A model generated the notes under the pieces. That model saw only the letters and a list, made by a program, of their open reading frames with translations, did not search any database and had not been told where the DNA came from. From assembly GCA_025350595.1 (NCBI GenBank), contig JANXXP010000302.1:1-33595 (forward strand): 33,595 nt of DNA, written 5' to 3'. The position numbers and the translations under genes are program-made. The stretch comes from Bacteroidota bacterium (GTDB taxonomy: Bacteria > Bacteroidota > Bacteroidia > Bacteroidales > VadinHA17). Below, in pieces: positions 2,666 through 28,333 of this stretch (the first letter of the stretch is position 1; every line of letters starts with the position of its first letter).

Positions 2666-3787
2666 ATGGATAAAAGGATCAAAGATGCTATTCCGGGAAT
2701 TGTATCTCAGTTAAACGAACATCAAAAAGAGGAGGTCAAAGCCTTCCTTGGATTTGATGCCTGCATAGATAAAATTACCCTGGTAGTAAAGAATAAAAAG
2801 GAAAACGGGGAACAGGAATATTATGCTAATCTTCGTCATTTCGGTGAATTTCTCATTAGCCGTGAAAACAAAAGTTGTGGCCTTGAACTTCAAACAAAAC
2901 AATCCAAGATTGGCGGCAATATGGTTATAATGGCGAATGCCCTGGGAAGTCTTGGAGTTAAGGTCGACTGCATTGGAACATTTGGTCTCCCGGGGATTTT
3001 GCCGGTATTCAATTCCATGTCGTCAAACTGCGCCCTGTATACAATAGCTGATACTATTCAGGTTACTGCACTTGAATTTAACGACTCAAAGGTAATGATG
3101 TATGATCCGGGACCATATTTCACACTTGACTGGAAAGACGTAAAAAATCTGTTAGGAATCGAAAAATTAAAGTATCTCCTTACCGGAAAACAACTTGTAT
3201 CTTTTGTAAACTGGAGTGAAATTGAAAATGCCACACAGATATGGCAGGGAATCCTCGAAGAGGTATTACCGTCAGTTGTAATGCCGGAAACCCATCCTTA
3301 TTTTTTCACTGATTTAGCTGATTTTGCGCGAAAACCAGAGAAAGAGATACGAATCTTAATAGACCTTCTCGGCAGGTTTAAACAGTATTTCAGAGTAATT
3401 ATTAGCCTTAACGAGAATGAAGCAGATCTGATTGCCAAAGCAATGGGAGTTCTGCGCGATCCATCAGATGAAAGCTATATCAGATCTCTATATAAAAGTA
3501 TTAATGTGGATGTATTAATTATTCACCGGACAAAAGATGCCATCGCTTTTGATAATAGCACATTTGAAAAGTGTAATACCTTTTTCTGTGAAAATCCGGC
3601 ATTACTTACCGGAGCCGGCGATAATTTTAATGCAGGATTCTGTTTCTCCCTATTTCACGATTTTAACCTCTTTCAATCGCTGTTGCTGGGAAATGCAGGT
3701 TCCGGATCATATGTAAAAAACGGTATCAGTTCTGAGTTAAATACGCTGATAGATTTTTTAGAACAAAGCCTGGTATTGAATAATTAG
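2666..3787 (+). CDS. PfkB-family carbohydrate kinase
   Basis: The product is about 373 aa. The frame can be extended upstream to 2558, but that would overlap 98 bases of nagB; the ATG at 2666, 10 nt after the nagB stop, gives MDKRIKDAIPG and is preferred. The N-terminal GFDACIDKI and GGNMVIMANALGSLG regions resemble the ribokinase-family substrate and signature-1 segments. Near residue 320 the sequence LTGAGDNFNAGF is the PfkB signature 2, with the catalytic base Asp in GAGD. The likely reaction is ATP-dependent phosphorylation of a sugar or sugar phosphate in the cytoplasm. Placement after NagB suggests it phosphorylates the product or substrate of that pathway, but substrate cannot be read from the sequence. 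Its stop codon overlaps by 4 bases the stop of the convergent SusC-like gene, so there is no room for a terminator between them. Confidence 0.85.
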   Translation: MDKRIKDAIPGIVSQLNEHQKEEVKAFLGFDACIDKITLVVKNKKENGEQEYYANLRHFGEFLISRENKSCGLELQTKQSKIGGNMVIMANALGSLGVKVDCIGTFGLPGILPVFNSMSSNCALYTIADTIQVTALEFNDSKVMMYDPGPYFTLDWKDVKNLLGIEKLKYLLTGKQLVSFVNWSEIENATQIWQGILEEVLPSVVMPETHPYFFTDLADFARKPEKEIRILIDLLGRFKQYFRVIISLNENEADLIAKAMGVLRDPSDESYIRSLYKSINVDVLIIHRTKDAIAFDNSTFEKCNTFFCENPALLTGAGDNFNAGFCFSLFHDFNLFQSLLLGNAGSGSYVKNGISSELNTLIDFLEQSLVLNN

Positions 3788-6582
3788 AAAATAATATTCG
3801 CACCAAAAGTCACCGTTCGTGTTCTGCACCAGGTGTTCCTTCTATCGATCCCCGGAATTAACGGATTGTATGTATTATAGTCAGTATCTCCATATCTTGG
3901 ATTAGGATCGGAGCCCTTATATTTAGTTATATAGAACAAATTGTTAGCAGCCAGATACAATCTGATCTTACTGAATTGTGTATTTTGTGACAGCCTGAAG
4001 TTATATCCCAGACACATATTATCCAGAGAAACGAAGGAAGCATTTTCAACATCAAAACTTGATCTGACAGCCATCCCATTCTTAAGCATTCCGGTAGCGC
4101 TGTTTCTCATATCTGCAGCAGTCTTCGGCAGGTTATAGGAACCAATCATAGCTGGCGCTTCATAAATAGAACGAAATGAATTGACCAGATCATGCCCGAA
4201 TACACCACGAAAGAAAATATTCAGATCCCAGTTTTTATAATTAATCATATTCCCAAAACCGATCAACATTTTTGGCAAGCCATTTCCCACTATCTGCGCA
4301 TCATTATAATCGATATATCCATCCTTATTTGTATCAACCAGAATTGTTCTGCCATCCTCACCAATTCCATTGTAAACCCATGCAAGTAATTGACCGATTG
4401 GTTTCCCTTCCTCTACCCGCACTAAAGCTACGCCAGCACCTCCCGGTGATCCCATGTCACCAATAGCCAGTATACCAACCTTAGAAACGCCATTATTACT
4501 ATCAGATAGTGAAATCAGTTTGTTTTTAATATTTATTGACGGGTTAAATGATATGGCATATGAGAAATCAGATTTCTTTATGGCAATATAGTTAAGAGTT
4601 AACTCAATCCCACTGCTGCTTAGCTTACCAAGGTTTAGTAAAGTCTGCCAATAAAGGTTTGGTGGAGATGGTACGAAATATGTATATAATAAATCTGTGG
4701 TAGTGCTGTTATAAAAGTCAAAAGAACCGTTCACTTTTGATTTGAACAATGAAAAGTCAAATCCAAGATCAAACTCTCCATGCATTTCCCATTTAAGATC
4801 AGGATTTGAATTGCTTTGAGGGTAATAACCGGGGACAAAGGCACCATTATAGTAAAAATAGTTTTGCGGACTCATTCGAAACAATGACTCATAACTGTTT
4901 GATGGCTGGTTTCCTGTAATTCCGTAATTAGCCCGTACTTTTAGATTATCTATAAAACTTCCCTCAGTCAGTTTTGACAGATTTGCTCCTGCACCAAAAG
5001 CCGGGAATAAGCCCCATTTATGATTAGCGCCGAACCGTGAAGAACCTTCATATCGTGCGCTGGCAGTAACAAACCAGGTGTTGTTGAGATTCAGGTTTAT
5101 CCGTCCAAAAAATGCAATCAGCTTATTTGAGTCTTTGTAACTTGAGGCTGTTCCATTTCCGTTTTTAAAATCAAGAGCAGCTGAAAGATTATTGAAAGTG
5201 AAAGCATCGGTCAGAAAATTACCTGCCTGGACAAAAAAACCAGCATTAGTAAAATCCTGGAAAGAATATCCTCCCAAAACACTAATATTCAATGAAGATG
5301 TAATATCTCTGTTAAAATGTGCCGTTGATTCAAAAAGACGGCTGGAATAATTATCTTCCTGTCTGGAGGCTAACCCATTTGTGTTCATTCCCTTGTAGAA
5401 ATCATGTATATCAAAATACTGACCTTTCAGTGCACCAATACTCTGGATAGAATAAAATGCATCTAGGTTCAGTCCTTTAATAATTTCGAAGGTTCCCTTT
5501 AATGAAATATTCATGATCCTGTCCTGACCCGCATTTTTATTGAGTTCGAGCATTGAAACCGGATTATAATAATCAAATAAAGACTGTTGAAAATATCCAT
5601 CAAATTTTGAATACTGCGGGTCGCTGCTTCTTACTGTTGATGTCGGATTGAATATAGCTGCGTAACGAAAAGCATCAGCAAAAACATATTTTGATTCCCG
5701 TTGCGTTGCTGCCATATTTAAATCCATGGTAAAGCGATCATTTAATGCCTTTTGGTTGAGATTAAATCTTCCGTTAATCTGATTATACCCGGTATTAATC
5801 AAGACCCCATCTCCACTTCGTAAATTTATTGATGCCCTGTAACTTGTCTTGTCAGTCCCTCCTGATATCGTCAGGTTGTGCACCTGAGAAATAGCTGTCC
5901 GTTCAATCTCCTTAAACCAGTCAGTATTTGATCCAAAGTCCGTTCCCAAACCTGTTTCCCTTGATAAAGCCCTCCATTCAGAAGCGGTCATAACAGGTGT
6001 ATTTTTGGCAACCATCTCAACACTTGTATAAACATTATAGTCGATAATCGCTCTTCCTGATTTACCTTTCCTTGTGGTTACCAGAATCACACCACAAGAA
6101 GCCCTTGTCCCATAAATCGCTGCAGCAGCACCATCCTTTAATACAGTAATTGATTCAATATCATTTGGATCAATATTATTCAGTGATCCTCCGGGAACAC
6201 CATCAATAACTATCAGTGGCAGCGTATTTCCGTTTATGGTACTAAACCCTCTTAAACGAATATCATATACTCCATCAGGATCACTTCCTGGTTTACTTAT
6301 AGATAAGCCGGCGACTTTACCCTGGATCAGTTGTAAAGGACTTTCAATATTTCCCTTGTTGAACTCGGAGAATCTGATAGTGGTAATGGAGAATATGACT
6401 TCTCTCCATTTTTGAATTCCATATCCAATATTCACGATATTGTCTCGCAGGATTACAGAATCAGATTTAGTCTGTGCGATTTCATTTTGCTGTGCTAATG
6501 TCGCGCTAAAATGAATGAAAATCAGGAAAAGAGATAATAGACTTAACCTCCCGAGACAGGGAAATCTTCGTGAAGATGTCAT
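3784..6582 (-). CDS. SusC/RagA-type TonB-dependent transporter lacking the N-terminal regulatory-like domain, no SusD partner
   Basis: This 932-aa outer-membrane protein is a close paralogue of the SusC at 19163-22180; large parts align almost without gaps (for example the plug signature NNIDPNDIESITVLKDGAAA and the C-terminal GIDRRNTWCRTRTVTFGANI). A signal peptide ends near residue 30 (SATLA). In the paralogue about 75 residues of CarboxypepD_reg-like domain follow; here they are missing and replaced by a short linker of about 16 residues. The TonB-box-like segment reads DNIVNIGYG instead of EVVVVGYG. The plug (about residues 65-170) and barrel look complete. It is the last gene of a five-gene block, 29 nt after a giant propeller lipoprotein, and no susD follows. 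It probably imports an oligosaccharide, perhaps with a propeller lipoprotein or the distant SusD as partner; that is inference. Confidence 0.92.
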   Translation of the reverse strand: MTSSRRFPCLGRLSLLSLFLIFIHFSATLAQQNEIAQTKSDSVILRDNIVNIGYGIQKWREVIFSITTIRFSEFNKGNIESPLQLIQGKVAGLSISKPGSDPDGVYDIRLRGFSTINGNTLPLIVIDGVPGGSLNNIDPNDIESITVLKDGAAAAIYGTRASCGVILVTTRKGKSGRAIIDYNVYTSVEMVAKNTPVMTASEWRALSRETGLGTDFGSNTDWFKEIERTAISQVHNLTISGGTDKTSYRASINLRSGDGVLINTGYNQINGRFNLNQKALNDRFTMDLNMAATQRESKYVFADAFRYAAIFNPTSTVRSSDPQYSKFDGYFQQSLFDYYNPVSMLELNKNAGQDRIMNISLKGTFEIIKGLNLDAFYSIQSIGALKGQYFDIHDFYKGMNTNGLASRQEDNYSSRLFESTAHFNRDITSSLNISVLGGYSFQDFTNAGFFVQAGNFLTDAFTFNNLSAALDFKNGNGTASSYKDSNKLIAFFGRINLNLNNTWFVTASARYEGSSRFGANHKWGLFPAFGAGANLSKLTEGSFIDNLKVRANYGITGNQPSNSYESLFRMSPQNYFYYNGAFVPGYYPQSNSNPDLKWEMHGEFDLGFDFSLFKSKVNGSFDFYNSTTTDLLYTYFVPSPPNLYWQTLLNLGKLSSSGIELTLNYIAIKKSDFSYAISFNPSINIKNKLISLSDSNNGVSKVGILAIGDMGSPGGAGVALVRVEEGKPIGQLLAWVYNGIGEDGRTILVDTNKDGYIDYNDAQIVGNGLPKMLIGFGNMINYKNWDLNIFFRGVFGHDLVNSFRSIYEAPAMIGSYNLPKTAADMRNSATGMLKNGMAVRSSFDVENASFVSLDNMCLGYNFRLSQNTQFSKIRLYLAANNLFYITKYKGSDPNPRYGDTDYNTYNPLIPGIDRRNTWCRTRTVTFGANIIF

Positions 6583-6611: not shown

Positions 6612-9600
6612 TTACTTCAATATTTGAAATATCTCAAGGTTTCGGTCATTAATTGCTACTAACAAATAATGTTTTCCCAGTATATTAATCGTGACTATCT
6701 TCCTTGCATCACCGGAAATCGCAAGACCGCTTTTAACAGGCATTAGCGCATTAAAATGCTTCATGGTATCTCCGAGCAAACACCAGCCATAGCTTGCATC
6801 AAAACGCCCTAATGATGGCCTTACAGCATAATCGTTTCCTGCGAGGAGCAGATCCTGTTTTCCATCTTTATCAATATCCTTGACAATGATTGATCGTACT
6901 GTTGAAAACTGTGCTTCAACGGGAAGCTTGCTCAATTTAAAAGTTCCATCCCCGTTATTATAAAATACAGAGCTTTCGAACATCTCAGCTTTTTTCAGTA
7001 AAGCATGTGTCATTATATCTTTCCCAAAGATATCCTTAACTGTCTGTCCTCCGAAATCTGAATAATTCGGATATTTTTTATCTAACCCTCCTATCTGGCT
7101 CATTAGCTCATCGAGTGAAGCTATGGGGTAACTTACACCATTCTGATAGGAACAAATTACCTGATCGAGTGATCCGTTATTGTCAAAATCGCTCATGTAC
7201 ATCTCAACAGGTTCTTTGACTGATGCTTTTAACATAGAATTGAGGCCAAGATTTCCACAGATTAAATCCTGATATCCGTCTCCATCAACATCAGCAACAG
7301 TCACGCAATTCCACCATCCCGATGTTTCATTAAGACCGGCAAGACCTGTAACATCATTAAAATGTCCCTTATCATTTCTGTACACAGAAACTTTCATCCA
7401 TTCACCTACAACAATAAGATCCTGATCACCATCATGGTCAAAGTCCATCCACGCAGCATCAGTAACCATGCCAGCCTTCCTCACTGCATCAGCTGTCTCA
7501 TTTGTCACAACTTTAAAATGTCCATGGCCGTCATTTTCCAGCAGATACTGGTCAGGGGTCCATCCATAAGCGCCCGGAACTGATCTCGATCCAACAAACA
7601 AGTCAATATCTCCATCTTTGTCAAAATCACATGGTCGTACACACGATCCGTTATGTGACATCAAAGGCAAAGAACCTTTAGTAAATACCCCTTTCCCATC
7701 ATTAATAAGCAACAAGTCAGTCAGCATTGGATTTCCAATAAGTAACTCATTGCCTCCTCTTACAATATAGAGATCAAGATCACCATCTCCGTCAGCATCA
7801 AAAAAAGCGGCGTCGACATCGTCAGTGAAAAGATTCTTAGTAAGCAGTGGTACGTTTAATGGTTTAAACGATCCGTCTTTTTGCTGAACAAACATCATAG
7901 CTGCCTGACCTTTCGCACCTCCGACAAAGAGATCATCGAGGCCATCCCCATTTATATCTCCAACAGCCAGTGCGGGTCCTTCAGCTGAAAGACTATGAGG
8001 GATAAGTTTCTCCCGGTTAAAATCCACATAGTCATCTTCTTTGTGAGTGAACTCTAACCCCTGGATCTGGGTAAGGGAGAACAGTTTCGACTTTCCATTA
8101 TCCTGATCAATCAGCCCTGATTTTTTCTCTGCATTTCTAATATCAAGATATAGTATTGTGTCAGCCGGTACATTTTTTAATGTTTGTTCTGACAGGTCGG
8201 GCCATCTTACTACCAGGGAATCGATAAATTTATCTTCTCCCAGGCCAAAATGCAGCACATCTGAAGTCGCTGACAAAAAACCTCTTGTTGGAAATTGTTC
8301 CGCAACCTGTTTCTGTCTGTCACTAAATAGGGTAATGCGTGAACCAATTCCCCGGGAATTTAAACCTTTTCCTTTTAACGCAACTGATAAATAATGGTTG
8401 TTTAATTGGGTTGAAGCATTATTCCTGAAGATAAATGCCTTTTCATTTATATTGTTTACGATAAGATCAAGATCACCATCATTGTCAAGATCGGCATAGG
8501 TTGAACCATTGGAAAAAGAACGAGTCTCAAAACCCCATTCCTTAGCTTTGTTCGAAAATGTGAGATCATGGTTATTTTTGAAGATATAATTTACATTTGG
8601 ATACAGAGGCATCCTCTTGTACAACTCACTATCAGGAACATTACTGTTATCCTTTGATGGGGAAAATCTATTCCCTCCTGTCAGGAATTTTACATAGTCC
8701 AGATCGTTAGCCCTTCTGTAGATTCCGTTGGTTATGAAGAGATCTTTCCATCCATCATTATCAACATCACAAAACAAAGGCGACCAGCTCCAGTCAGTTG
8801 AGTAAACCCCTGCCAGCTGACCTATTTCACTGAACATTCCCCCACCCAGATTTAGTTGGAGAGTATTCCTCACAAATTGATAATAATACCCATACTTGAG
8901 TTTTAACTGAAACAATTCGTAGTCATCCTCCCCTCCCGATTGCTTCCTGATTTTTTCATCATCCGGCATCATATCCAATACCATCACATCAAGCAATCCG
9001 TCATTATTAATATCTCCCACATCATTACCCATTGAGGACCTGCTTGTATGTCTGAAATAATCAGTTAGTTTTTCTGAAAAAGTTCCATTGCCATTGTTGA
9101 TGTACAAATAATCATTTTCGTGGAAATCATTAGAAACAAATATATCGGGTAAGCCGTCATTGTTAATGTCGCAAACATTGACTCCCAGGCCATAACCAAT
9201 CTGACTGCTATATATTCCGGCTTCCCGGGTAACATCATGAAAAATGTGCTTCCCGTTTACCTCATCATTTCTGAATAGTCTGTCCCCTGCAAGAGAATCA
9301 AAGTCATTACGCAAAGAAACAGGGCCATAGCTTCGTGACGTATGTACAGAATGATTCAAGAGGTACATATCAAGATCGCCATCCATATCGTAATCAAAGA
9401 AAGCAGCCTGTGTAGAAAAACCCTGGAAGTCCAGACCGTACTCATGTGCCTGTTCTTTGAATGTCAGGTTACCCTGGTTTATGAACAATTGATTCCTGCC
9501 ATGAAGATTCTTATAATTCCCTACCTGGCAAACATAAATATCGAGCAGACCATCTCCATTAACATCTGCCATAGTTACGCCAGTCTTCCAGTCACCTGTT

Positions 9601-9923
9601 CCTTCTACCCCGGCAGAATTCGTGATATCTTCAAAAACTAAATTCCCTTTGTTAAGGTAGAGCTTATTTGGGTTCTGATTGGAAGTGAAATATAAATCAA
9701 CAAGACCGTCATTATTAATATCCCCGGCAGCAACACCTGCCCCGTTATTGAAGTACAGATATTCAATTATGTTAGACTGCTCAGTTTCCGTAAGCTTATT
9801 TACAAAATCAACATTTGTAACTGAAGAAGGTAACAAAGTAAACAAATGATCTGCCTCTTTTTTCTCAGATTTACAGGAAAAAACAAATAAAAGTGCAATC
9901 AAAAAAAAAGCTGAATTCTTCAT
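6612..9923 (-). CDS. giant lipoprotein with two seven-repeat FG-GAP/VCBS propellers flanking an ASPIC/UnbV domain (copy C)
   Basis: This 1103-aa protein has a lipoprotein signal (MKNSAFFLIALLFVFSC, Cys17), followed by a charged SEKKE stretch, so it is membrane anchored and perhaps surface exposed. Calcium-binding DxDxDG-type loops start at about residues 68, 120, 177, 252, 304, 386 and 478, then again at 656, 709, 766, 827, 878, 912 and 1016. Seven repeats per half predict two seven-bladed integrin-like beta-propellers. Between them, residues about 524-596 match the ASPIC/UnbV domain (GIGSRITLF, LHFGLG, DSLVVRWPD). The sixth C-terminal repeat has an insertion with SYPIASLDEL and an aromatic YPNYSDF stretch shared by the paralogues. 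Enzymatic motifs are not seen. This copy is the most divergent of the three. It lies 9 nt after copy B and 29 nt before the second SusC. A glycan-binding or scaffold role is inferred from fold and context. Confidence 0.88.
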   Translation of the reverse strand: MKNSAFFLIALLFVFSCKSEKKEADHLFTLLPSSVTNVDFVNKLTETEQSNIIEYLYFNNGAGVAAGDINNDGLVDLYFTSNQNPNKLYLNKGNLVFEDITNSAGVEGTGDWKTGVTMADVNGDGLLDIYVCQVGNYKNLHGRNQLFINQGNLTFKEQAHEYGLDFQGFSTQAAFFDYDMDGDLDMYLLNHSVHTSRSYGPVSLRNDFDSLAGDRLFRNDEVNGKHIFHDVTREAGIYSSQIGYGLGVNVCDINNDGLPDIFVSNDFHENDYLYINNGNGTFSEKLTDYFRHTSRSSMGNDVGDINNDGLLDVMVLDMMPDDEKIRKQSGGEDDYELFQLKLKYGYYYQFVRNTLQLNLGGGMFSEIGQLAGVYSTDWSWSPLFCDVDNDGWKDLFITNGIYRRANDLDYVKFLTGGNRFSPSKDNSNVPDSELYKRMPLYPNVNYIFKNNHDLTFSNKAKEWGFETRSFSNGSTYADLDNDGDLDLIVNNINEKAFIFRNNASTQLNNHYLSVALKGKGLNSRGIGSRITLFSDRQKQVAEQFPTRGFLSATSDVLHFGLGEDKFIDSLVVRWPDLSEQTLKNVPADTILYLDIRNAEKKSGLIDQDNGKSKLFSLTQIQGLEFTHKEDDYVDFNREKLIPHSLSAEGPALAVGDINGDGLDDLFVGGAKGQAAMMFVQQKDGSFKPLNVPLLTKNLFTDDVDAAFFDADGDGDLDLYIVRGGNELLIGNPMLTDLLLINDGKGVFTKGSLPLMSHNGSCVRPCDFDKDGDIDLFVGSRSVPGAYGWTPDQYLLENDGHGHFKVVTNETADAVRKAGMVTDAAWMDFDHDGDQDLIVVGEWMKVSVYRNDKGHFNDVTGLAGLNETSGWWNCVTVADVDGDGYQDLICGNLGLNSMLKASVKEPVEMYMSDFDNNGSLDQVICSYQNGVSYPIASLDELMSQIGGLDKKYPNYSDFGGQTVKDIFGKDIMTHALLKKAEMFESSVFYNNGDGTFKLSKLPVEAQFSTVRSIIVKDIDKDGKQDLLLAGNDYAVRPSLGRFDASYGWCLLGDTMKHFNALMPVKSGLAISGDARKIVTINILGKHYLLVAINDRNLEIFQILK

Positions 9924-9932
9924 AAGAAAGTT

Positions 9933-12900
9933 TCACTTTCCTAATTCTTTAAAAACCTGTAATGAATCATGGCTCCTGCCAACCATTAATAATTTACCGT
10001 TAGATGTTGCCACTTCAAGAATACTTCTGACCTCTCCTTCAAGATGTAATCCTGATAATTTTGCAGGAATATAACTAAAATTTCCCTTCCCGTCACCATC
10101 TAAAAATGCACCATAGCTGGCATCATATCTTCCTACTTCCGGTTTAACATTAAACAAATTACCTCCCAGCAGAATATCAGTTTTCCCATCTCCATTATAA
10201 TCACCAACAGCTGCTGCATAAACTGGTGAAAACTGCACCTCCGCCGGCAAAGGTTTTCTTGTAAAATGACCCGAACCATCATTAATAAAAAGAGAGGTTT
10301 CGAGGAGATTTGCATCAAGGCGAATAGCGCTCTTTAATTGATCGGGAGTGAAGATATCTGTTATCTGTTGATTTTTATACGTATCATACTTTTTGTATTT
10401 GTCTTCCAATCCCGGGATTTGTTTTGTCAGATCGTGCTTCAGAGCTAGCGGATATGATTTATCACCATCATAAACACATATGATCTGCTCAACAGTACCG
10501 TTGAGGTCAAAATCATTTACATACATGCTTACAGGTTTTTCAGGCGAAGCTTTGAACCTGGAGTTAAGTCCATGATTTCCGGCAATAAAATCTATATTCC
10601 CGTCGCCATCAAAATCCCCGGCGGCAAGGCAATTCCACCAGCCTTCAGTTTTCTCAGAACCAAAAGCATCCTTTTTTTCAGTAAACTTACCTTTGTCATT
10701 AATGAATACTCTTAATGACATCCAGTCTCCGGCAATTATCATATCTTTATCTCCGTCACCGTCCACATCTACCCAGAGCATATCCCTGATCATACCGATT
10801 TTCTGAAGTTCAGGGGCAATCTCTGCAGTAACATCTGTAAAGTTTCCTTTCCCGTCATTCTCAAGAATATACCCATTTACAGGTACTCCATATGAAAAAG
10901 GTTTAAGACGGATGCCGACAAACAATTCCACTGCTCCATCGTTATCAAAATCTGCTGACCTTACACAGGAACTACTCTCATATTTTCCCGCAGGCAATAT
11001 CTGATCTGATTTTACAAAATGACCTTTCCCATCGTTAATATACAATCTGTCTGCGAGAGCTGATGAGCTCTCGGGAAATTCATTACCTCCGCAAGCCACG
11101 TATAAATCAAGGTCCCCATCCCCATCAGCATCGAACATTGCACAATCAACTTCTTCTGAGATCTTATCCGCTTCAAACAAAGATTTTTCAACTGATTCAA
11201 ATGTTCCGTTTTTTCGCTGAATCATCAAAGCCCCTGCCTGTCCTTTAGGTCCACAGATATATATATCCTCCAGACCATCTCCGTTTACATCACCTTTGCA
11301 CATACGGGGACCTTCAGTTGACATCATGTGAAACAGCAAAGGTTCGCGTTCAAAATCATTAAAATCATTCTCCTTATGAACGAAATCAATCACTGCATCT
11401 TTGCTGATATCTTTAAAGTATTTATTTCCAGAGCTGACAGGATCAACAGTATGTACAGAAATCTTTTGTGCTTCCTTCTGATCAATAGTTAAGGTCTGGT
11501 TTGTTTTTACATTTGTTAAAAGTGTGCTGCGGTTATCAGGCCATTCAACAATAAGAGAATCCACCATGGTCAATGCGCCCAGACCTAAATTAGGGCGGGG
11601 ATCCACTGTCGATAAATATCCTCGCATCGGCATTTGCTCAAGATATACAAATTTGCCGTTGTTAATGGCTGTTATCTTTGCACCAATAGCCTGTGTATTC
11701 CCTGCTACACCCTTTAATATTAATTTCAGATAATGATTGTCAGGTAATTGTTTATTGGATTCATTCCGGTAAACTGACATTGGCATATTGACATTGTTTA
11801 TGACAAGATCAAGATCGCCATCGTTATCCAGATCGACATATGCAGCGCCATTTGAGAAACCGGGGGTATCGAGTCCCCATGAAGATGTCACATTCTGAAA
11901 TCTGTAGTTTCCCGAATTCCTGAAAGCGTAATTAGGGATCTTAACAGAAGGAATTGCGTCAATAAGAGCCCTGTAATTCACATTTTTACCTACAATCACA
12001 GACATTGCCATGTCTCTGTTTGAGAAGAATTGAATATAATCCTGATCAGTCAGATCCTTATAAATACCATTCGCTACAAAAATATCCTTAAGACCATCAT
12101 TATCAAGATCTGCTATCAATGCACCCCAAGACCAGTCGGTAGCAGAAACACCTGCCAATCTGCCAATTTCACTAAAAGTTCCATCAGCATTGTTCAATTG
12201 AAGCATATTCCTCGTAAACTGGTGATGATAACCATTATCCACGCTTGATTTATAACTATCCCAGCTATCAAATGTTGTCTTAGTTTTAAGCCGGTCCATA
12301 TGCTCGGGAAGCATGTCAGTAGCGAATATTTCAGGATAATGATCATTATTTATATCGGCCATATCACCGCCCATGGAGGCAGCTGAATTGGATCTCATCA
12401 TAGAAACCATGGTTTCCCTGAATGTACCGTCATGATTATTGAGATAGACATAATCCCTTTCGAAAAAATCATTCGACACATAAATATCCATCCATCCATC
12501 CTGATCGATATCTCCGATCATTACACCCAGACCAAATCCAATCGTACTTCCGAAGATACCTGCTTCAGCACTTACATCTGTAAATTTATTGCCATCATTT
12601 CTGAAAAGCTTATCACCTCCAATTGAATCCCGAATGAATCGCTGGTTTACCTTTTGATTAAAACTTCCAATTGCTTTTGGAAAATTTTTAAGCAGGAACA
12701 GGTCCAGATCTCCGTCCTTGTCGTAGTCAAAAAAAACTCCCTGGGTAGAATTGCCGGGTTCGTCTATTCCATACTCTTTTGCTTTGTCAGTAAATGTAAG
12801 ATCACCGTTGTTGATGAACAATTCATTCCTGTTCTGAACCCCTTCCTCATTTCCCGACTTGCATACATAAATATCAATTAATCCGTCACCATTTACATCA

Positions 12901-13331
12901 GCAAAGCTAACCCCTGTTGACCATCCCTTTCCTCCAATACCAGCCCTTTGTGAAATATCTTCAAATTTTAAATTGCCTTTATTGAGGTAGAGAACATTGG
13001 AACCCATGTTTGAACCCATGAAAATATCAGGAAGACCATCGTTATTCACATCGCCAATTGCAACACCGCCGCCATTATAAAAATTACGGAAAGTATAGAT
13101 ATTGAATTTACTTTTCAGCTGCCTTTCATAGTCTAGCTTATTGGCAAAATCAGCATGGGTAACGCTTGCGGGCATAAGAGTAAATAAATGGGGTACTGAC
13201 TGTTTCCCGCATGAAATGATAAAAATCGGGAATAATAACAATAACAGTTTAAAAAGCCAAACACCCAAATTGGCCAGTTTCGATCCCCCACCCCCCCCGA
13301 AGAGGGGCTCTTTACGTTCAAATGCAATCAT
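9933..13331 (-). CDS. giant lipoprotein with two seven-repeat FG-GAP/VCBS propellers flanking an ASPIC/UnbV domain (copy B)
   Basis: This 1132-aa protein has the same seven repeats, ASPIC, seven repeats plan as its neighbours, for example DVNNDGLPDIF and DLDNDGDLDLVINN in the first half, an ASPIC segment with AIGAKITAI and LGLGAL, and DADGDGDLDLYV and DYNGDGKTDIL in the second. It is closer to copy A than to copy C. The N-terminus is odd: the ATG, 1 nt after the preceding gene's stop, is followed by MIAFERKEPLFGGGGG before the hydrophobic LFKLLLLLFPIFIISC lipoprotein signal (Cys41). The extra 20-odd residues are encoded by a GC-rich repeat-like segment including eight consecutive Gs. A TTG codon at 13268-13266 could give a more normal signal peptide. 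Either way a lipoprotein is predicted. The role is inferred as surface binding or partner of the adjacent SusC; no catalytic motif is seen. Confidence 0.85.
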   Translation of the reverse strand: MIAFERKEPLFGGGGGSKLANLGVWLFKLLLLLFPIFIISCGKQSVPHLFTLMPASVTHADFANKLDYERQLKSKFNIYTFRNFYNGGGVAIGDVNNDGLPDIFMGSNMGSNVLYLNKGNLKFEDISQRAGIGGKGWSTGVSFADVNGDGLIDIYVCKSGNEEGVQNRNELFINNGDLTFTDKAKEYGIDEPGNSTQGVFFDYDKDGDLDLFLLKNFPKAIGSFNQKVNQRFIRDSIGGDKLFRNDGNKFTDVSAEAGIFGSTIGFGLGVMIGDIDQDGWMDIYVSNDFFERDYVYLNNHDGTFRETMVSMMRSNSAASMGGDMADINNDHYPEIFATDMLPEHMDRLKTKTTFDSWDSYKSSVDNGYHHQFTRNMLQLNNADGTFSEIGRLAGVSATDWSWGALIADLDNDGLKDIFVANGIYKDLTDQDYIQFFSNRDMAMSVIVGKNVNYRALIDAIPSVKIPNYAFRNSGNYRFQNVTSSWGLDTPGFSNGAAYVDLDNDGDLDLVINNVNMPMSVYRNESNKQLPDNHYLKLILKGVAGNTQAIGAKITAINNGKFVYLEQMPMRGYLSTVDPRPNLGLGALTMVDSLIVEWPDNRSTLLTNVKTNQTLTIDQKEAQKISVHTVDPVSSGNKYFKDISKDAVIDFVHKENDFNDFEREPLLFHMMSTEGPRMCKGDVNGDGLEDIYICGPKGQAGALMIQRKNGTFESVEKSLFEADKISEEVDCAMFDADGDGDLDLYVACGGNEFPESSSALADRLYINDGKGHFVKSDQILPAGKYESSSCVRSADFDNDGAVELFVGIRLKPFSYGVPVNGYILENDGKGNFTDVTAEIAPELQKIGMIRDMLWVDVDGDGDKDMIIAGDWMSLRVFINDKGKFTEKKDAFGSEKTEGWWNCLAAGDFDGDGNIDFIAGNHGLNSRFKASPEKPVSMYVNDFDLNGTVEQIICVYDGDKSYPLALKHDLTKQIPGLEDKYKKYDTYKNQQITDIFTPDQLKSAIRLDANLLETSLFINDGSGHFTRKPLPAEVQFSPVYAAAVGDYNGDGKTDILLGGNLFNVKPEVGRYDASYGAFLDGDGKGNFSYIPAKLSGLHLEGEVRSILEVATSNGKLLMVGRSHDSLQVFKELGK

Positions 13332-13332
13332 A

Positions 13333-13959
13333 TTATTTCTGTATCCTTTTACTGATGTCTTTTTGAATATTTCCTACAGTTGAAGATGTATCACGAATCT
13401 CTTTTTTTACAAGCATATCTGTAAAGACAGCCCAAACATGAACATCATCCTGTTTAAATATTGAGATCTGACGATTACCTGTAACCTTGACAAAAGCGCT
13501 TCCTCTTTTAGGACTCTTAACTTCAATAAAACCAGTACCATACTGTTGCTCATACCATTTTAATACATCAAGCTGCAGGCTGTCTGAACTAAGTGATTTA
13601 TTCCATGGCGCCCAGCCATTATAAAAAAGCCGCACCGGCATTTCATAAATCTTACCATTTATGAATTCAGGATAAAAATCCATTGTAGCCGAAGCTTTCA
13701 ATTCCTTATTTATCTTGTATTCGACTGTCATATTTCTTGTTCCCTGCCTGATAATCCCTTTCATGTTAAGGGCCCAGCACTGTGTATAAAACGACTTTTC
13801 CGGCATGCCGAGATACAGTCCCATAAACAATGAATCGCATCTTACCCCGCTGGCAAGTTCATGCTTCAACATCCTATCGTATTTAGCCTTTGGCGAACAT
13901 CCTGAAATGATATAAACTGCAATGAGCATGGGCATCAGCCATAAAATTTTTGTTTTCAT
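13333..13959 (-). CDS. small lipoprotein of unknown function between two propeller genes
   Basis: I do not recognise a named family. From the ATG at 13959 the product is 208 aa; a TTG codon at 13971 would add four residues, but the ATG gives a normal MKTK n-region. The signal MKTKILWLMPMLIAVYIISGC has a lipobox with Cys21. The mature part is a single globular-looking domain with the segments MGLYLGMPEKSFYTQCW, FYPEFINGKIYEMPV, NGWAPWNKSL and KWYEQQYG, ending in a lysine-rich tail. It begins at the stop of copy A (the TTG alternative would overlap its TGA) and stops 1 nt before the start of copy B, so it is surely translated in the same operon. Its place between two 1100-aa paralogues suggests a periplasmic or outer-membrane helper of them. 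This is inference; it might also be a small glycan-binding lipoprotein. Confidence 0.75.
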   Translation of the reverse strand: MKTKILWLMPMLIAVYIISGCSPKAKYDRMLKHELASGVRCDSLFMGLYLGMPEKSFYTQCWALNMKGIIRQGTRNMTVEYKINKELKASATMDFYPEFINGKIYEMPVRLFYNGWAPWNKSLSSDSLQLDVLKWYEQQYGTGFIEVKSPKRGSAFVKVTGNRQISIFKQDDVHVWAVFTDMLVKKEIRDTSSTVGNIQKDISKRIQK

Positions 13960-13967
13960 AGTTTCTG

Positions 13968-16900
13968 TCAATATTTATAAAATTGTAAATTATCGTTATT
14001 TCTTGCAACTATTATGAAATGTCTTCCATGTATATTTAGAATTTTCAGATCCCTGATTTCACCCTTCACGGAAAGACCTGAATTAAGAGGGGAAACAGAT
14101 TGCCAGGTTCCATCAGAGCTCCCTTTTAAGAAAAGACCATAAGAAGCATCATAAATTCCTGTTTCAGGTTTTGCTCTATACTGATTTCCTCCTATAATTA
14201 TATCACATATTCCATCATGGTCAAAATCATCTGCAGCAAGAGCATAAACCGGTGAAAATTGTGCTTCCACAGGCAGCGGTTTCAGTTGAAACGATCCCTT
14301 TCCGGTATTCATCATTATACAGCTTTCCATAAACCTGGCATTCAATTTAACTGCTCTCTGTAAAACATCAGGTGAAAATATATCTTCAATTGTCGCATCC
14401 TTATAATCATCAAATTTCTTATATTTATTTGCCAGTGAAGGAATTTGCTTCACAAGATCATCCTTCATAGCCAATGGATAAGATTTGTCGCCATTAAAAG
14501 TACAAATGACCTGTTCCGTACTCCCATTCAGATCAAAGTCATTCACATACATTTGTACTGGCTTTTTTGCAGAAGCCTTAAAACGCGAATTTAGTCCCTG
14601 ATTTCCCAATACAAAATCTATATTTCCATCACCGTTCAAATCTTTAGCAATAATAGTATGCCACCAACCTTCAGTATCTGACAAACCAAATTGTTCTGAT
14701 TCGTCTTTAAAGATTCCCTTATCATTAATAAACAGCTTTATTCCCATCCAGTCACCAACAATCACCATATCAAGATCACCGTCATTATCCACATCAGCCC
14801 ATACCATATCAGTAATCATACCCAGCCCTGTGAGCCCTGGTGCCCTTTTCCGAGTAACATCGGTAAAATTGCCATGCCCATCATTTTCCAACAGGTAACC
14901 ATTTACAGGTATTCCATATTCAAAGGGACGTAAACGAATACCAACAAACAAGTCAATATCGCCATCTTTATCAAAATCTGCAGGTTGCACGCAGGAGGTA
15001 CTCTCATACTTCCCGGCAGGCAGGATTTGGTCAGATTTAGTAAAGTTGCCTTTCCCGTCGTTTATATACAATCGATCTGCTAACGCTGATGAACTTGAAG
15101 GAAATTCGTTGCCTCCACTGGCTATATATAAATCCTGATCACCATCTCCATCTGCATCAAAGAAAGCACAATCGGTATCCTCAGATATTTTGTCAGCCTC
15201 AAATAATTTCTCATTAGTCTTTTTAAAATGGCCCTGTCGATCCTGCACATATAAAGCTCCGGGAGAATCTTTGGCTCCACAAATATAAGTATCATCAAGA
15301 CCGTCTCCATTAACATCACCAACGGCCATATGAGGTCCTTCATTTGACAACATCTGAAATAACAGCCTGTCGCGCTCAAAATCATTGAATTCATTCTCCT
15401 TATGTTTATAATCAAGCCCCCCTGGCTGTTCAACTTTTTGAAGTATTGAATTTAGTCTCTTTTCAAGTACATTTGAAGGGCTCACAATTGCATCCTTCTC
15501 ATCAAGTTTCAAAAACTGGTTTACTGCAACCCTGTATAATGCCGAATATTTGCCATCAGGCCAGTTAACGATCATTGAATCAATCAAAGGCGCAGCCCCA
15601 AGTCCAAAATGCAGTCGGTTATCTACAGTAGATTGAAAGCCGCGCATAGGAACCTGTTCCTGAAAAGTTATTCTCCCATTGCAATAAAGGGTGACCCCGG
15701 CACCGATAGCCGCTGTATTTTTATCTGCCCCTTTTAAAGAAAGCATAAGAAAATTTGTCCCCGACTTGCTCTTTGTTTCGTTTCTGTAAACAAACGGGGG
15801 CATATTAACATTATTTACAACCAGATCGAGGTTGCCATCGTTATCCAGGTCGGCATAAGCTGCTCCATTCGAAAAAGAGGGTGTCGCCAGACCCCATTTA
15901 TCTGATAAATTCGTAAAAGTGAGGTCCCCGTTATTATGAAAAGCATAATTAGGAACTTTCACCGAAGGGATCATATCAATTATTTTCAAAATCGCTTTCT
16001 CCTCAGTCTTGATCATGGTTCTCATCAGGGAGGCATCGGAATAGAAGTTAAGATAATCGCGGTCGAGCAAATCCTTATATATACCGTTTGCCACAAATAT
16101 ATCTTTCCAACCGTCGTTATCAAGATCCATTATCAGTGCCCCCCAGCTCCAATCTGTTGTACTTACTCCGCTCAGCCTTCCAATTTCGCTGAAAGAACCG
16201 TTTCTGTTATTAAGCTGAAGAACATTACGGGCAAACTGATGACCATATCCATTGGCAATTTTATTCTGATATCTCTCCCAGCTTTCAAACATTGTTTTCG
16301 TTTTCAGCCGTGAGTTTCCTTCCGGAGTCATTTCAGTTACGAATATGTCAGGGTAAGCGTCGTTGTTTATATCTGCCATATCAGCACCCATGGCGCCGAG
16401 ACTGGTCTCCCTCATCTGATCCTCAAGCGATTCGGTAAATGTGCCGTTTTTATTGTTGATATAGAGATAATCACGTTCGAAAAAATCATTGGATACATAA
16501 ATATCGGGCCATCCATCGCGATTCACATCACCGACACTTACTCCGAGACCAAATCCGATTTTACTTCCGTATATCCCAGCTTCTTTACTAACATCAGTAA
16601 AATGACCATTATCGTTACGGTACAATTTATTACTTCCAAGCGTATCACGTACCTGTCTTTGTCCGGGTTTAATATCAAATTCCGTCACTGATTGAAATGA
16701 GTTGTTGAGCAGATAACAATCCAGGTCGCCATCCCTGTCATAATCAAAAAAAGCAGCATGGTTTGACAATCCTACGTCCGCCAGTCCAAATTCAGTAGCT
16801 TTTTCAGTAAAGGTAAGATCGCCATTATTAATGAATAGCTCATTGCTCCTGTTTTTTGTATTGGGTTGTCCCGATTTGCAGACGTAAATATCAAGGAACC

Positions 16901-17300
16901 CGTCGCCATTAACGTCTGCAATACTTACTCCGGTAGACCAGGAACCTGATGAAGCCACCCCTGCCTTATCAGTAATATCCTCAAATACAAAATTGCCCTT
17001 GTTTAAATAGAGTTTATTCCCTGTCATGTTGCCGCAAAAGTAGATATCAGGCAGACCATCATTATTAAAATCACCAATCCCTACCCCCGCACCGTTATAA
17101 AAATTACGGTAAGTATAGGTATTGAATTGTTCGGTATATTCCAGTTTATTTACAAAACCGATGTGGGTTTGCTTTTCCCCGAGAAGCGTAAATAGCGTTG
17201 CAGAATCGTTCGCTGACTTTCCCCTGGAGCATGACAAAAATAAGACAGATATCAACGGGATTATCCATCTTAAGGAACCTCTATACCTCAAATAATTCAT
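13968..17300 (-). CDS. giant lipoprotein with two seven-repeat FG-GAP/VCBS propellers flanking an ASPIC/UnbV domain (copy A)
   Basis: This 1110-aa protein is the first gene of the propeller block. The signal peptide ends in ISVLFLSC with Cys24. Fourteen acidic calcium-loop repeats are visible. Those in the first half include DFNNDGLPDIY, DYDRDGDLDCY, DVNRDGWPDIY and DLDNDGNLDLV. Those in the second include DVNGDGLDDTY, DADGDGDQDLY, DFDKDGDIDLF and DLNGDGNIDFV. The ASPIC/UnbV module between them has AIGAGVTLY, LHFGLG and DSMIVNWPDG. In the fifth repeat NDAYPD and in the thirteenth DFDLNG depart from the canonical loop, and both departures recur in copy B. It starts 52 nt after the hairpin that ends susCD. 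Integrin-alpha-like propellers are usually binding modules; a surface glycan-binding role is inference from the locus. The stop TGA nearly abuts the next gene, indicating translational coupling. Confidence 0.87.
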   Translation of the reverse strand: MNYLRYRGSLRWIIPLISVLFLSCSRGKSANDSATLFTLLGEKQTHIGFVNKLEYTEQFNTYTYRNFYNGAGVGIGDFNNDGLPDIYFCGNMTGNKLYLNKGNFVFEDITDKAGVASSGSWSTGVSIADVNGDGFLDIYVCKSGQPNTKNRSNELFINNGDLTFTEKATEFGLADVGLSNHAAFFDYDRDGDLDCYLLNNSFQSVTEFDIKPGQRQVRDTLGSNKLYRNDNGHFTDVSKEAGIYGSKIGFGLGVSVGDVNRDGWPDIYVSNDFFERDYLYINNKNGTFTESLEDQMRETSLGAMGADMADINNDAYPDIFVTEMTPEGNSRLKTKTMFESWERYQNKIANGYGHQFARNVLQLNNRNGSFSEIGRLSGVSTTDWSWGALIMDLDNDGWKDIFVANGIYKDLLDRDYLNFYSDASLMRTMIKTEEKAILKIIDMIPSVKVPNYAFHNNGDLTFTNLSDKWGLATPSFSNGAAYADLDNDGNLDLVVNNVNMPPFVYRNETKSKSGTNFLMLSLKGADKNTAAIGAGVTLYCNGRITFQEQVPMRGFQSTVDNRLHFGLGAAPLIDSMIVNWPDGKYSALYRVAVNQFLKLDEKDAIVSPSNVLEKRLNSILQKVEQPGGLDYKHKENEFNDFERDRLLFQMLSNEGPHMAVGDVNGDGLDDTYICGAKDSPGALYVQDRQGHFKKTNEKLFEADKISEDTDCAFFDADGDGDQDLYIASGGNEFPSSSSALADRLYINDGKGNFTKSDQILPAGKYESTSCVQPADFDKDGDIDLFVGIRLRPFEYGIPVNGYLLENDGHGNFTDVTRKRAPGLTGLGMITDMVWADVDNDGDLDMVIVGDWMGIKLFINDKGIFKDESEQFGLSDTEGWWHTIIAKDLNGDGNIDFVLGNQGLNSRFKASAKKPVQMYVNDFDLNGSTEQVICTFNGDKSYPLAMKDDLVKQIPSLANKYKKFDDYKDATIEDIFSPDVLQRAVKLNARFMESCIMMNTGKGSFQLKPLPVEAQFSPVYALAADDFDHDGICDIIIGGNQYRAKPETGIYDASYGLFLKGSSDGTWQSVSPLNSGLSVKGEIRDLKILNIHGRHFIIVARNNDNLQFYKY

Positions 17301-17412: not shown

Positions 17413-19119
17413 CTAGTAACCTGTATTTTGGGTAAGATTTGGGTTAGCAGCAATTTTATCTTTGTGTATCGGGAAAAGGTTGGTATATGAAGCTGTAATA
17501 ATAACATCACCAGCGTTATTATGAGGAAGAGCCCATTTATCAACTTGAGTGAATACTCCCCAACGGATCATAGCCTGACGTCTGCTTTTTTCAAATGCAA
17601 GCTCACGGCCCATTTCATTGAATAATTCACCACCACCAACAACAGGGCCAGTGAGATTAAAACTTAGTTTCCCATCAAGAGTTGCTAAAGCCGGAACACC
17701 AGCGCGTGCTCTCACGAGGTTAACTAGAGCTAAAGCAGTAGGATCTGTTGCATTACCTGTCTTACGCCATTGAGCTTCAGCTTTCATAAGAAGTACATCA
17801 GCATAACGGAATACGGCATAGTCGTTGCTAAGGTTTTCACTGCTTCCCATTGCAAATTCCCATTTTCCAACTCTTACACCACCCTGGCGCCAGCATTGTG
17901 GACCAAGTTCATTGATCTGTGGAGCAGGAACACCACCAATAAGATCACCAATACTCCCAAAATTATAAACTTTCCCATCAGGATCTTTCTGGAATGGAGC
18001 CGGAAGACGTGCAGGAAGATCATTTGCTTCATAACCATCATCCTGTAGAAGTTTCCCATTACTATCGTACTGATAACCTGCAAGGAAAGTACCGCGTTTC
18101 AAAGACGGGCTTGTTAGTGTTCCTGGCTCGCCTTTTCTGATATCAGTTGCGCTGAAGGAATTATAGAATTCCTCAAGTGAACAAAAACCATTCCAGGGCT
18201 GAGCTGTAAGATTGTAAGTTGCCTGATTCAGATAACTAAGTGTCTGCATGTGGAGATTGAATCCCTGGAAGAACACTTTATCATAAGGTATGGCAAAGAT
18301 AAATTCTTTGGAACCTGAATTGTCGGTATTAAAGTTTTTAAAGAAATTGCCTTCAAGAGAATATTTACCTGAGTTGATAACCTCATCACAGGCAGCAATA
18401 ACTTTGTCCCATTGTGGGGTTCCGGTATAAACGCCAGCGTTAAGATACAATTTTGCCAGGAGTGTTTTACCAGCCCATTTATTCATACGGGCATAAGTAG
18501 TTCCATCAACTTTATCAGATAACTTTGGAACAGCTGCCTCAAGGTCACCAACTATAAAATCATATACAGCTTTTCTGCTTGCAGTTGCAGGTGTTGCTTC
18601 TGCTTTGGCAAAATCAGTAACCAAAGGAACATTACCAAACTCATCAATTAACTGCCAGTAAAAGAAACCTCTTACAGCCTGTAATTCTGCAACATAAGCG
18701 TCACCAACTTCCTGTTTAACCTGACCGCTTGTAACAAGTGACTGGAACTGGTAAATAAGTCTGTTAGCTGTGTTTACACCATTGAACCCGAAGTTCCATG
18801 CGCCACCCATAGCGCCATCTTCTTTAGTCCACATATGTAAATGTAATCTTCTCCAGCTACCACCATCATCCCAGTCCTGACCTCTGGTTGGAGCAGTAAG
18901 CTCGTCTGTGGTCATTTCCTGTAACTGCTGTGGGGTATCTGAAGCAAAGTTACCGAACTGAGTATAAGCGGCTCCAAGAGCTGAAATAAACTCCTGTTCT
19001 GTTTTGAAGAAGTTGGCAGGAGTAACCTGACTATAAAGTGTTTCATCAAGTTTAGTACACGACTGACTAAGACCAGCCAGCATAAACAACCCTATTAATA
19101 GAAATAGTGACTTTTTCAT
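17413..19119 (-). CDS. susD: SusD/RagB-family outer-membrane glycan-binding lipoprotein
   Basis: The product is 568 aa from the ATG at 19119; an upstream ATG at 19143 would add eight charged residues (MKTKERNK) and is less typical. The signal peptide MKKSLFLLIGLFMLAGLSQSC gives lipid-modified Cys21. The mature start CTKLDETLYSQVTPANFF is typical of SusD proteins. Helical tetratricopeptide-like segments follow, including the conserved AELQAVRGFFYWQLIDEFGNVPL segment region and the C-terminal RYADVLLMKAEA and RRQAMIRWG motifs of the RagB/SusD domain. SusD proteins form the lid of the SusC barrel and bind the glycan. The gene starts about 43 nt after the susC stop and is followed by a strong hairpin, so susC and susD form the end of a transcription unit. 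Family assignment is secure; maltodextrin specificity is inferred from neighbouring enzymes. Confidence 0.95.
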   Translation of the reverse strand: MKKSLFLLIGLFMLAGLSQSCTKLDETLYSQVTPANFFKTEQEFISALGAAYTQFGNFASDTPQQLQEMTTDELTAPTRGQDWDDGGSWRRLHLHMWTKEDGAMGGAWNFGFNGVNTANRLIYQFQSLVTSGQVKQEVGDAYVAELQAVRGFFYWQLIDEFGNVPLVTDFAKAEATPATASRKAVYDFIVGDLEAAVPKLSDKVDGTTYARMNKWAGKTLLAKLYLNAGVYTGTPQWDKVIAACDEVINSGKYSLEGNFFKNFNTDNSGSKEFIFAIPYDKVFFQGFNLHMQTLSYLNQATYNLTAQPWNGFCSLEEFYNSFSATDIRKGEPGTLTSPSLKRGTFLAGYQYDSNGKLLQDDGYEANDLPARLPAPFQKDPDGKVYNFGSIGDLIGGVPAPQINELGPQCWRQGGVRVGKWEFAMGSSENLSNDYAVFRYADVLLMKAEAQWRKTGNATDPTALALVNLVRARAGVPALATLDGKLSFNLTGPVVGGGELFNEMGRELAFEKSRRQAMIRWGVFTQVDKWALPHNNAGDVIITASYTNLFPIHKDKIAANPNLTQNTGY

Positions 19120-19162
19120 TTTATTTCTTTCTTTTGTTTTCATATCTTATTCATTTTCAGGG

Positions 19163-24412: not shown

Positions 24413-24418
24413 AACGAA

Positions 24419-25810: not shown

Positions 25811-25879
25811 TAGATTGTTCTGAGTTAGTTATTTTATAGAAGTGTAATGTGTCGTAATTATCCCCATCGATTTTCTTCA

Positions 25880-25983
25880 TTTGCCCCTAACCCTAAAAGG
25901 TGCGAAGAACCGAGCACGCAGTGCGAGCTCGGCGCAGCCAAAATCAATTACTCCCTTTAGGGCCTGGGCAAATAATTGATTTT
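25880..25983. repeat. intergenic repeat element with nested and mutually exclusive hairpins
   Basis: An imperfect long inverted repeat pairs 25880-25900 (TTTGCCCCTAACCCTAAAAG...) with 25953-25972 (CCCTTTAGGGCCTGGGCAAA). Inside it is a GC-rich hairpin, CCGAG (25910-25914) with CTCGG (25928-25932), around a GCAC-GCA-GTGC core. A second, perfect 11-bp pairing joins AAAATCAATTA (25940-25950) with TAATTGATTTT (25973-25983); its loop contains the right arm of the first repeat, so the two folds compete. The base composition contrasts with the surroundings. It looks like a small dispersed non-coding element lying between the GH65 and GH13 genes. I see no ORF that accounts for it. Confidence 0.6.
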
Positions 25984-26025
25984 CAAGCACTGAAATTTCA
26001 GTATCCATATTTTCAGATAGTTATA

Positions 26026-28332: not shown

Positions 28333-28333
28333 A

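Follow-up and report, generated by a model that had tools for sequence, protein, structure and literature searches.

The closest described relatives of the proteins considered here are cartilage acidic protein 1 (CRTAC1; Protein Data Bank (PDB) entry 9etn) and bacterial proteins of the CRTAC1/UnbV type, in which a calcium-blade propeller is followed by an ASPIC/UnbV domain. In CRTAC1 itself nothing follows the ASPIC region except, in vertebrates, an EGF-like domain. Here we describe three related genes, P0001, P0002 and P0003, in a 33,595-nucleotide contig of a Bacteroidales bacterium of the VadinHA17 lineage (JANXXP010000302.1, assembly GCA_025350595.1; this whole stretch is called the window and its genes are named P0001 to P0007). 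Unlike CRTAC1, their products are predicted lipoproteins, and such proteins are often encoded beside a SusCD transporter. The matched CRTAC1 chain is about half as long as P0003, which adds a second, homologous propeller of about 500 residues and a probable insertion domain. Proteins of this twin-propeller type are usually left annotated as VCBS/FG-GAP or ASPIC.

Passages of PMC3123361 describe Dx[DN]xDG loops and seven blades in the integrin alpha propeller and in Psathyrella velutina lectin; these lack the twin propeller with ASPIC, and the likeness to the lectin is taken from that paper, no match having been obtained here. The same passages also cite three seven-bladed propellers in tandem in a cyanobacterial protein; tandem propellers are therefore not new in themselves. 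A candidate for a system that works alike is BtuG, the vitamin B12 lipoprotein lid on BtuB in Bacteroides, which part of PMC10404256 presents as a seven-bladed propeller surface lipoprotein capturing ligand for a TonB-dependent transporter; it has one propeller and its partner is BtuB, not SusCD, and on our side the parallel consists of gene adjacency only. Passages of PMC7618045 describe the SusCD utilisomes for levan and dextran as four-component complexes with further lipoproteins, the surface glycan-binding proteins and glycoside hydrolase (GH) lipoproteins, encoded with SusCD as in the window. The present genes differ in forming sets of up to three or more paralogues with a small lipoprotein and varied enzymes nearby. 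Also, the utilisome glycan-binding proteins and GH lipoproteins are not known to share the twin-propeller fold. Two marks of SusCD glycan-binding lipoproteins, a lipoprotein signal and a gene beside susC-susD, are present in the window. The interpretation that we favour, at about even confidence, is that P0001-P0003 and the small lipoprotein P0004 are outer-membrane lipoproteins with a predicted role as an extracellular ligand-capture accessory of SusC-SusD.

A constant order of calcium loops and domains

The reading frames of the three large genes were confirmed to be open. Together with P0004, the fourth gene inside 6612-17300, they comprise the following features, with the evidence in brackets:

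13968..17300, minus strand: P0003, position-1 twin-propeller lipoprotein, 1110 residues (Pfam, loop count, AlphaFold2, tree group)
15768..17192, minus strand: P0003 propeller 1, residues 37-511, seven predicted blades, seven calcium loops (DSSP, couplings)
15501..15755, minus strand: P0003 ASPIC/UnbV domain, residues 516-600 (Pfam, couplings)
13974..15458, minus strand: P0003 propeller 2, residues 615-1109, seven predicted blades, six with calcium loops (DSSP, couplings)
14325..14603, minus strand: P0003 probable insertion domain, residues about 900-992 (alignment, couplings)
13333..13971, minus strand: P0004, small lipoprotein, likely ATG start at 13959
9933..13331, minus strand: P0002, position-2 twin-propeller lipoprotein, 1132 residues (Pfam, loop count, tree group)
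11487..11690, minus strand: P0002 ASPIC/UnbV domain, residues 548-615 (Pfam)
10299..10577, minus strand: P0002 probable insertion domain (alignment to P0003)
6612..9923, minus strand: P0001, position-3 twin-propeller lipoprotein, 1103 residues (Pfam, loop count, tree group)
8151..8351, minus strand: P0001 ASPIC/UnbV domain, residues 525-591 (Pfam)
6975..7253, minus strand: P0001 probable insertion domain (alignment to P0003)

Pfam recognizes a single UnbV_ASPIC domain in each protein, directly after an FG-GAP propeller as in the CRTAC1-type core, and 10, 11 and 10 FG-GAP_3 stretches in P0001, P0002 and P0003, respectively. The calcium-loop pattern D-x-[DNH]-x-[DNGK]-[GADHCYVIL]-x-x-[DE] matches each protein exactly 14 times, seven on either side of ASPIC; shuffling the residues (2000 times per protein) gave means of 0.53-0.61 and maxima of 4-5. 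The same count of 14 and the 7+7 split around the aligned ASPIC region hold for four further full-length paralogues from this genome. When a looser loop pattern was applied to a 120-row alignment (P0001-P0003 and 117 of 150 listed candidates), the loops stayed in their columns, all 14 being present in 90 rows and at least 13 in 112. P0001 and P0002 are 48% and 58% identical to P0003 with all 14 loops aligned; taken over the three domains, pairwise identities range between 39% and 62%. A larger alignment of 323 rows (316 unique open reading frames from fetched loci and seven proteins of the window's own genome) has the lipoprotein cysteine at the aligned position in 295 rows, and 253 match a crude lipobox pattern.

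The spacing between loops 12 and 13 is 30-34 residues only in every one of the 120 rows. As this is short for a blade, loop 13 was first suspected of being different. The SYP...DDL...KY..Y stretch that follows it is conserved in part (P942 in 107/120 rows, Q952 in 99/120, K958 in 94/120, with N at 958 in P0003 itself).

Predicted blades of the two propellers

Blades were read from the DSSP string of an AlphaFold2 model of P0003 and assigned to P0001 and P0002 by identity and loop alignment. The mean predicted local distance difference test score (pLDDT) is 94.2, and a predicted template-modelling score of 0.92 suggests that the overall shape is fixed. In the model, propeller 1 is made of seven A-loop-B-C-D units, with an N-terminal strand (37-40) closing blade 7, and ASPIC of seven strands (516-600); propeller 2 has loops 8-14, a loop-less three-stranded C-terminal unit (1082-1109) and a closing strand (621-623). 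Because of this extra unit, DSSP alone allowed either seven or eight blades in propeller 2.

Residue couplings were calculated from the 323-row alignment, which counts as 292 effective sequences in propeller 2 and as 256 in the first half. Strands are designated by unit number and letter (8-15 in propeller 2, 15 being the loop-less last unit and v the closing strand), and couplings are ranked among 496 strand pairs in propeller 2, a set drawn up after the top couplings had been seen, and among 378 in propeller 1. The couplings of propeller 2 match the ring 8-9-10-11-12-14-15-8, pair 8A-9A ranking 1, 9B-10A 2, 11B-12B 6, 8A-15A 8, 12B-14B 22, 14B-15A 23 and 12A-14A 41; weak pairs are v-15C (rank 76) and 14A-15A (rank 215). 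The coupling partner of strand 12B (895-899) is the stretch 994-998 (rank 28), whereas its pair with 915-920 ranks 178. The coupling of loop 12 with 994-998 is 7.54, a value reached by none of 196 shifted controls; for 12B-994/998 alone the shifted control gives 5.2%, against a null that includes real contacts. Two more short strands pair with the hairpin of loop 13 (13a-13b rank 27, 13b-x1 34, 13a-x2 35), so that blade 12 seems to contain, between its strands B and C, an insertion domain of residues 900-992 or so. This domain of about 90 residues, inserted in the fifth blade of propeller 2, would thus hold loop motif 13 (921-929) together with the SYP/KY..Y stretch. In the model the blades and calcium loops of this propeller do not correspond one to one, the last blade (1082-1109 plus strand 621-623) having no loop.

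An eight-bladed propeller 2 with a separate blade 13 was rejected on the pairing of 12B with 994-998 instead of 915-920, the couplings between blades 12 and 14 and the loop-12 control. Against this rejection stand the two weak pairs, the 5.2% control, the late choice of the strand set and a profile alignment of the two halves, in which loops 13 and 14 fall opposite loops 6 and 7 of propeller 1; the probability of 99.9 and E value of 1.3e-35 of this alignment indicate that the halves are homologous. The inner hairpin of an old blade may have left the ring, and a loop-less blade may have been added at the end. Propeller 1 is clearly closed (v-7C rank 8, 1A-7A rank 17), and its blade count rests mainly on DSSP and the loops because some neighbouring strands couple weakly (6A-7A rank 50, 2A-3A 59, 3A-4A 72, 5A-6A 90).

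ASPIC domain and structural relatives

The strongest couplings between domains, in what is a noisy analysis, are 399-547 (z 17.6) and 132-529 (z 9.8); with 89-556 (8.2) they link loops of propeller 1 to ASPIC. ASPIC thus seems to lie against the calcium-loop face of propeller 1, an arrangement shared with the CRTAC1 match. Between the two propellers, no pair was outstanding in these noisy data, where 89 of the top 300 pairs lie between domains. The best PDB match of P0003 in a Foldseek search is murine CRTAC1 (9etn_A; TM 0.73 on its 551 residues, 616 columns); the remaining matches, among the best 50 of 558 at E ≤ 0.001, have TM values of at most 0.31. P0003 also has, in the model, the CRTAC1-type propeller closed by an N-terminal strand, with an ASPIC domain apparently packed on it. 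A PDB sequence search at E ≤ 1 returned CRTAC1 (E 2.4e-10) and integrin alpha-6 (E 1.3e-5) and nothing beyond these; BtuG was not among the matches. Each protein would accordingly read as a CRTAC1-like core, a seven-bladed calcium propeller with a docked ASPIC domain, extended by a second homologous propeller that carries an insertion domain.

A preliminary description of the window, made from its letters, had proposed seven loops, ASPIC and seven loops in all three proteins, with constant loop number and ASPIC place, and had called each a lipoprotein; the counts and alignments above agree with this. Its view that the proteins are no loose VCBS array is supported by the P0003 model and the couplings, which give two seven-bladed propellers. 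The dumb-bell shape with a separate ASPIC domain and one loop per blade is not what they point to: ASPIC appears docked, and loop and blade are out of step in propeller 2. Likewise, the insertion that had been placed in repeat 13 survives as a partly conserved stretch, motif 13 being, by coevolution, a loop motif and not a repeat unit.

Shorter proteins also occur. Eight loci of one genome family (f39) have a position-1 protein of propeller 1 and ASPIC only (596-633 residues, profile 6-9 to 573-590). In six of them (L137, L141, L146, L150, L154, L157) its gene abuts or overlaps the small lipoprotein gene, and gaps of 1.2 and 1.6 kb in L160 and L162 leave a broken second half possible; the copies that follow, where read, are full length. 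This short form is a natural comparison for what propeller 2 contributes. Stand-alone FG-GAP-type proteins of about 500-525 residues near the set (L111:4901-6451, L112, L116, L117, L119, L122, L149, L200, L098) score 62-80 bits with the propeller-2 profile and 26-35 with that of propeller 1. On contig C324 of the window's own genome, an 1188-residue protein combines TPR repeats, seven calcium loops and ASPIC (L102:14563-18126), and the same contig carries two CRTAC1-like genes.

Residues conserved at all positions

Outside the loops, D272, N282, M304, M324, W384, W386, G406, W580 (in ASPIC), G878, N900, G902 and N904 are invariant in all 323 rows, and N271, G305, N359, N405, Q1014 and N1039 are conserved in at least 98.8%. 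With the exception of N282 and W580, the invariant residues are found around blades 4-6 of propeller 1 and the fifth blade of propeller 2, where they occupy blade starts, the ends of B strands, and B-C loops or the positions preceding them; the blade after the fifth contains Q1014 and N1039. We expect a pocket around them. As they are common to the three positions, we expect these to share either one kind of small ligand, a saccharide being probable, or one partner, and not to bind three distinct polymers.

An ordered gene set with old positions

In 80 named loci, which are the best 80 of at least 580 relatives and so biased towards the query, the recurrent order is SusC, SusD, twin-propeller gene, small lipoprotein, twin-propeller gene, twin-propeller gene. 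Two loci (L038, L040) are variants in which the small lipoprotein follows SusD directly, the first propeller gene being absent. A tree of 64 rows (61 from loci, three from the window) was built by a quick method with SH-aLRT support only, and positions were labelled only where the small lipoprotein gene marks them. Its rows cover Bacteroidales, Flavobacteriaceae, Cyclobacteriaceae, Reichenbachiellaceae, Saprospiraceae, others and one Balneolota. The tree groups proteins by position with two changes in total, the minimum (shuffled mean 30.6; none of 200 shuffles as low); positions 2 and 3 each form one side of a branch with support 100, and position 1 needs two changes. The three copies are old, position-specific groups and not a recent amplification.

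The window's own genome holds seven full-length propeller copies on four contigs, in line with the multi-copy character noted at the outset. A second copy of the gene set is cut off by the end of contig C337, the C146 copy lies beside a SusD fragment at a contig end, and the stretch read around the C38 copy has no labelled SusC or SusD. In two loci, position-3 genes are split in two frames (L019:17312-20546, L029:13321-16607), perhaps through decay or assembly error.

P0004 has no Pfam or NCBIfam match. Its AlphaFold2 model (pLDDT 94.2, 29 aligned members) shows a helix-sheet-helix-sheet arrangement between terminal helices, and a PDB fold search with it gave no match at E ≤ 0.001. Among 395 Bacteroidota genomes drawn evenly, the P0004 family occurs in 27 (E ≤ 1e-10, at most eight candidates scored per genome), all 27 being among the 116 that carry the propeller family (hypergeometric 4e-16, kinship ignored). 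A listed propeller hit is found within 1.5 kb of 26 of its 28 hits; for the other two, one genome (G211) has no propeller place listed and one (G368) has its listed place on a different contig.

Frequency and neighbourhood

The 116 of 395 genomes with the full-length propeller family (E ≤ 1e-60, at most two candidates scored per genome) represent 66 of 171 genera and include the window's own genome. From the 115 others, taken in order of score, 100 regions were fetched, and loci were counted in 86, one per genome. SusD lies directly upstream on the same strand in 50 of the 86 and within 8 kb upstream in 60; SusC or SusD is found at that distance in 65. A propeller pair occurs in 22 loci. In 20 there is a run with the small lipoprotein, which is flanked by propeller genes on both sides in 17 and has no preceding one in view in three. 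The background expectation for a SusD within 8 kb on one strand is 1.3%, from a count of 274 PF07980 hits in 20 of these genomes (about 86.3 Mb), which makes the observed figure about 55-fold higher; observed counts used a SusD profile built from the loci themselves and the background used PF07980, so the two are not on one ruler. In a genome with one PF07980 hit (G313), that SusD is one small open reading frame away from the propeller genes.

The transporter and enzyme genes of the window are as follows:

17413..19143, minus strand: P0006, SusD/RagB lipoprotein (Pfam)
19163..22180, minus strand: P0007, SusC TonB-dependent transporter with an N-terminal carboxypeptidase-regulatory-like domain (Pfam, NCBIfam)
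3784..6582, minus strand: P0005, second SusC, without that N-terminal domain (Pfam, NCBIfam)
22502..30750, minus strand: upstream alpha-glucan genes, namely two GH13, GH65, beta-phosphoglucomutase-like (a label from reading the sequence, not from a domain scan) and an MFS transporter

P0005 and P0007 are 64% identical over 927 columns, and P0005 has no SusD of its own in the window; L019 has two SusC-like open reading frames (101 and 699 residues) at the equivalent place. Promoter-like and terminator-like sites between 16000 and 31200 are at chance level (43 versus 45.3 and 12 versus 10.6), as is a Bacteroidota-type promoter pattern in the window (2 matches, 2.16 expected).

GH65 was labelled in 8 of the 80 named loci and 8 of the 100 fetched regions, and GH13 in 2 of the 80. 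Neither GH13 nor GH65 is labelled in the 23-kb stretch of L019, the closest relative (80% identity), and the alpha-glucan link therefore looks local to the window. Downstream operon-like neighbours (59) include nine further FG-GAP, five MFS and three SSF genes, and SSF makes up 4 of the 39 upstream; other operon-like neighbours are two trehalases, two GH3, a GH97, a fucosidase and others (families among the best 25 of 54 and the best 25 of 61). Since these enzymes vary, the association is with SusCD rather than with any particular glycan locus. The proposal of a multi-copy accessory to a glycan locus can thus be kept as regards the place beside SusC/SusD and not as regards a single glycan locus.

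Two further genes recur. A PAP2-type gene lies downstream in 37 of the 80 named loci and 38 of the 86 one-per-genome loci; the protein, of about 448 residues (L048:20559-21902), was read by eye as lipoprotein-like and vanadium-haloperoxidase-like, and one scanned representative has a PAP2 domain. A protein of about 300 residues, with a GyrI-like domain in one representative, is found downstream in 14 of the 80 (L085:8710-9615), mostly in Flavobacteriaceae.

Discussion

The architecture, the ring of blades, the docking of ASPIC, the place after SusC-SusD, the old position groups and the tie to P0004 are supported by computation. On the ligand-capture interpretation, which we put forward as evenly balanced, the propeller lipoproteins would be exposed at the surface, contact SusCD and bind ligand, a role modelled on the surface glycan-binding proteins and the BtuG propeller of other Bacteroidota transporters. 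Several observations weigh against it. Neither SusC nor SusD occurs within 8 kb upstream in 21 of the 86 loci (two of these regions being incomplete), 36 of the 86 have a single propeller gene, and the neighbouring enzymes are too mixed for naming a substrate. Top and bottom loops are equally conserved as classes (means 0.51 and 0.52), with 12% and 5% of columns conserved at 90% or more, the "top" face being assigned from topology and not from coordinates; the insertion domain is the least conserved part (0.43). Moreover, two short CRTAC1-like proteins encoded by the window's genome share N271, D272, N282, M304, W386, N405 and G406 but lack M324, N359, W384 and D415, so part of the invariant set may be a fold signature.

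The twelve invariant non-loop residues would also suit a shared chemistry, in which case the proteins would be FG-GAP-type enzymes acting on a surface sugar or other substrate, with these residues as active site; passages of PMC3123361 do list a rhamnogalacturonan lyase among calcium-blade propellers. We regard this as unlikely: no enzyme family scored above cut-off in Pfam or NCBIfam, the PDB sequence matches were confined to CRTAC1 and integrin alpha-6, and a GH74 enzyme appears only among generic multi-propeller Foldseek matches (TM at most 0.29, best 50 of 558). That the nearest solved relatives are CRTAC1 and integrin, and that the 21 loci just mentioned lack SusC or SusD, would fit structural or adhesive surface parts lying near SusCD without working with it. 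The excess of SusD upstream and the gene order kept in the loci behind the position tree make this improbable.

The identity of the invariant residues at every position while neighbouring enzymes vary, and the dedicated P0004, could also reflect factors for SusCD assembly or stability that are indifferent to substrate. The genome of the window has 18 SusD (PF07980) hits for propeller genes on four contigs, so many SusD genes seem to do without them, although short contigs limit this count; we give the assembly role little credence. The abundance of paralogues in that genome would fit an ordinary VCBS/FG-GAP gene, without any special design, that was recently amplified on the spot. Such an origin is very hard to square with position groups common to many families, the 39-62% identity among the three copies and the fixed 14-loop pattern. 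The ligand-capture accessory thus remains the reading that we prefer. A bolder version, which we offer tentatively and hold to be possible rather than probable, is that SusC, SusD, the three position-specific twin-propeller lipoproteins and P0004 together form a single, old outer-membrane machine of six parts, which would make it a new utilisome class with labour divided by position and a common ligand or chemistry.

Among the papers listed by our searches of the open-licence PubMed Central literature, none dealt with the full-length twin-propeller/ASPIC architecture, in keeping with the impression that the paired design is little described; the word UnbV occurs in six papers of that literature, including PMC9957290, PMC3174227 and PMC3909097. 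The observation is real and well defined, and its interest lies more in the gene set than in the number of repeats. The family is present in more than a quarter of the sampled Bacteroidota genomes, in many cases next to the most familiar nutrient transporters of this phylum, and the place of the gene set beside SusCD suggests an outer-membrane uptake accessory of a type described little so far. The constant architecture, the order of the three positions, the small partner dedicated to the set and the invariant residues offer direct targets for binding, complex and mutation tests. If the six-part machine is real, it would serve varied downstream enzymes and would be a general uptake device rather than the accessory of one glycan locus.

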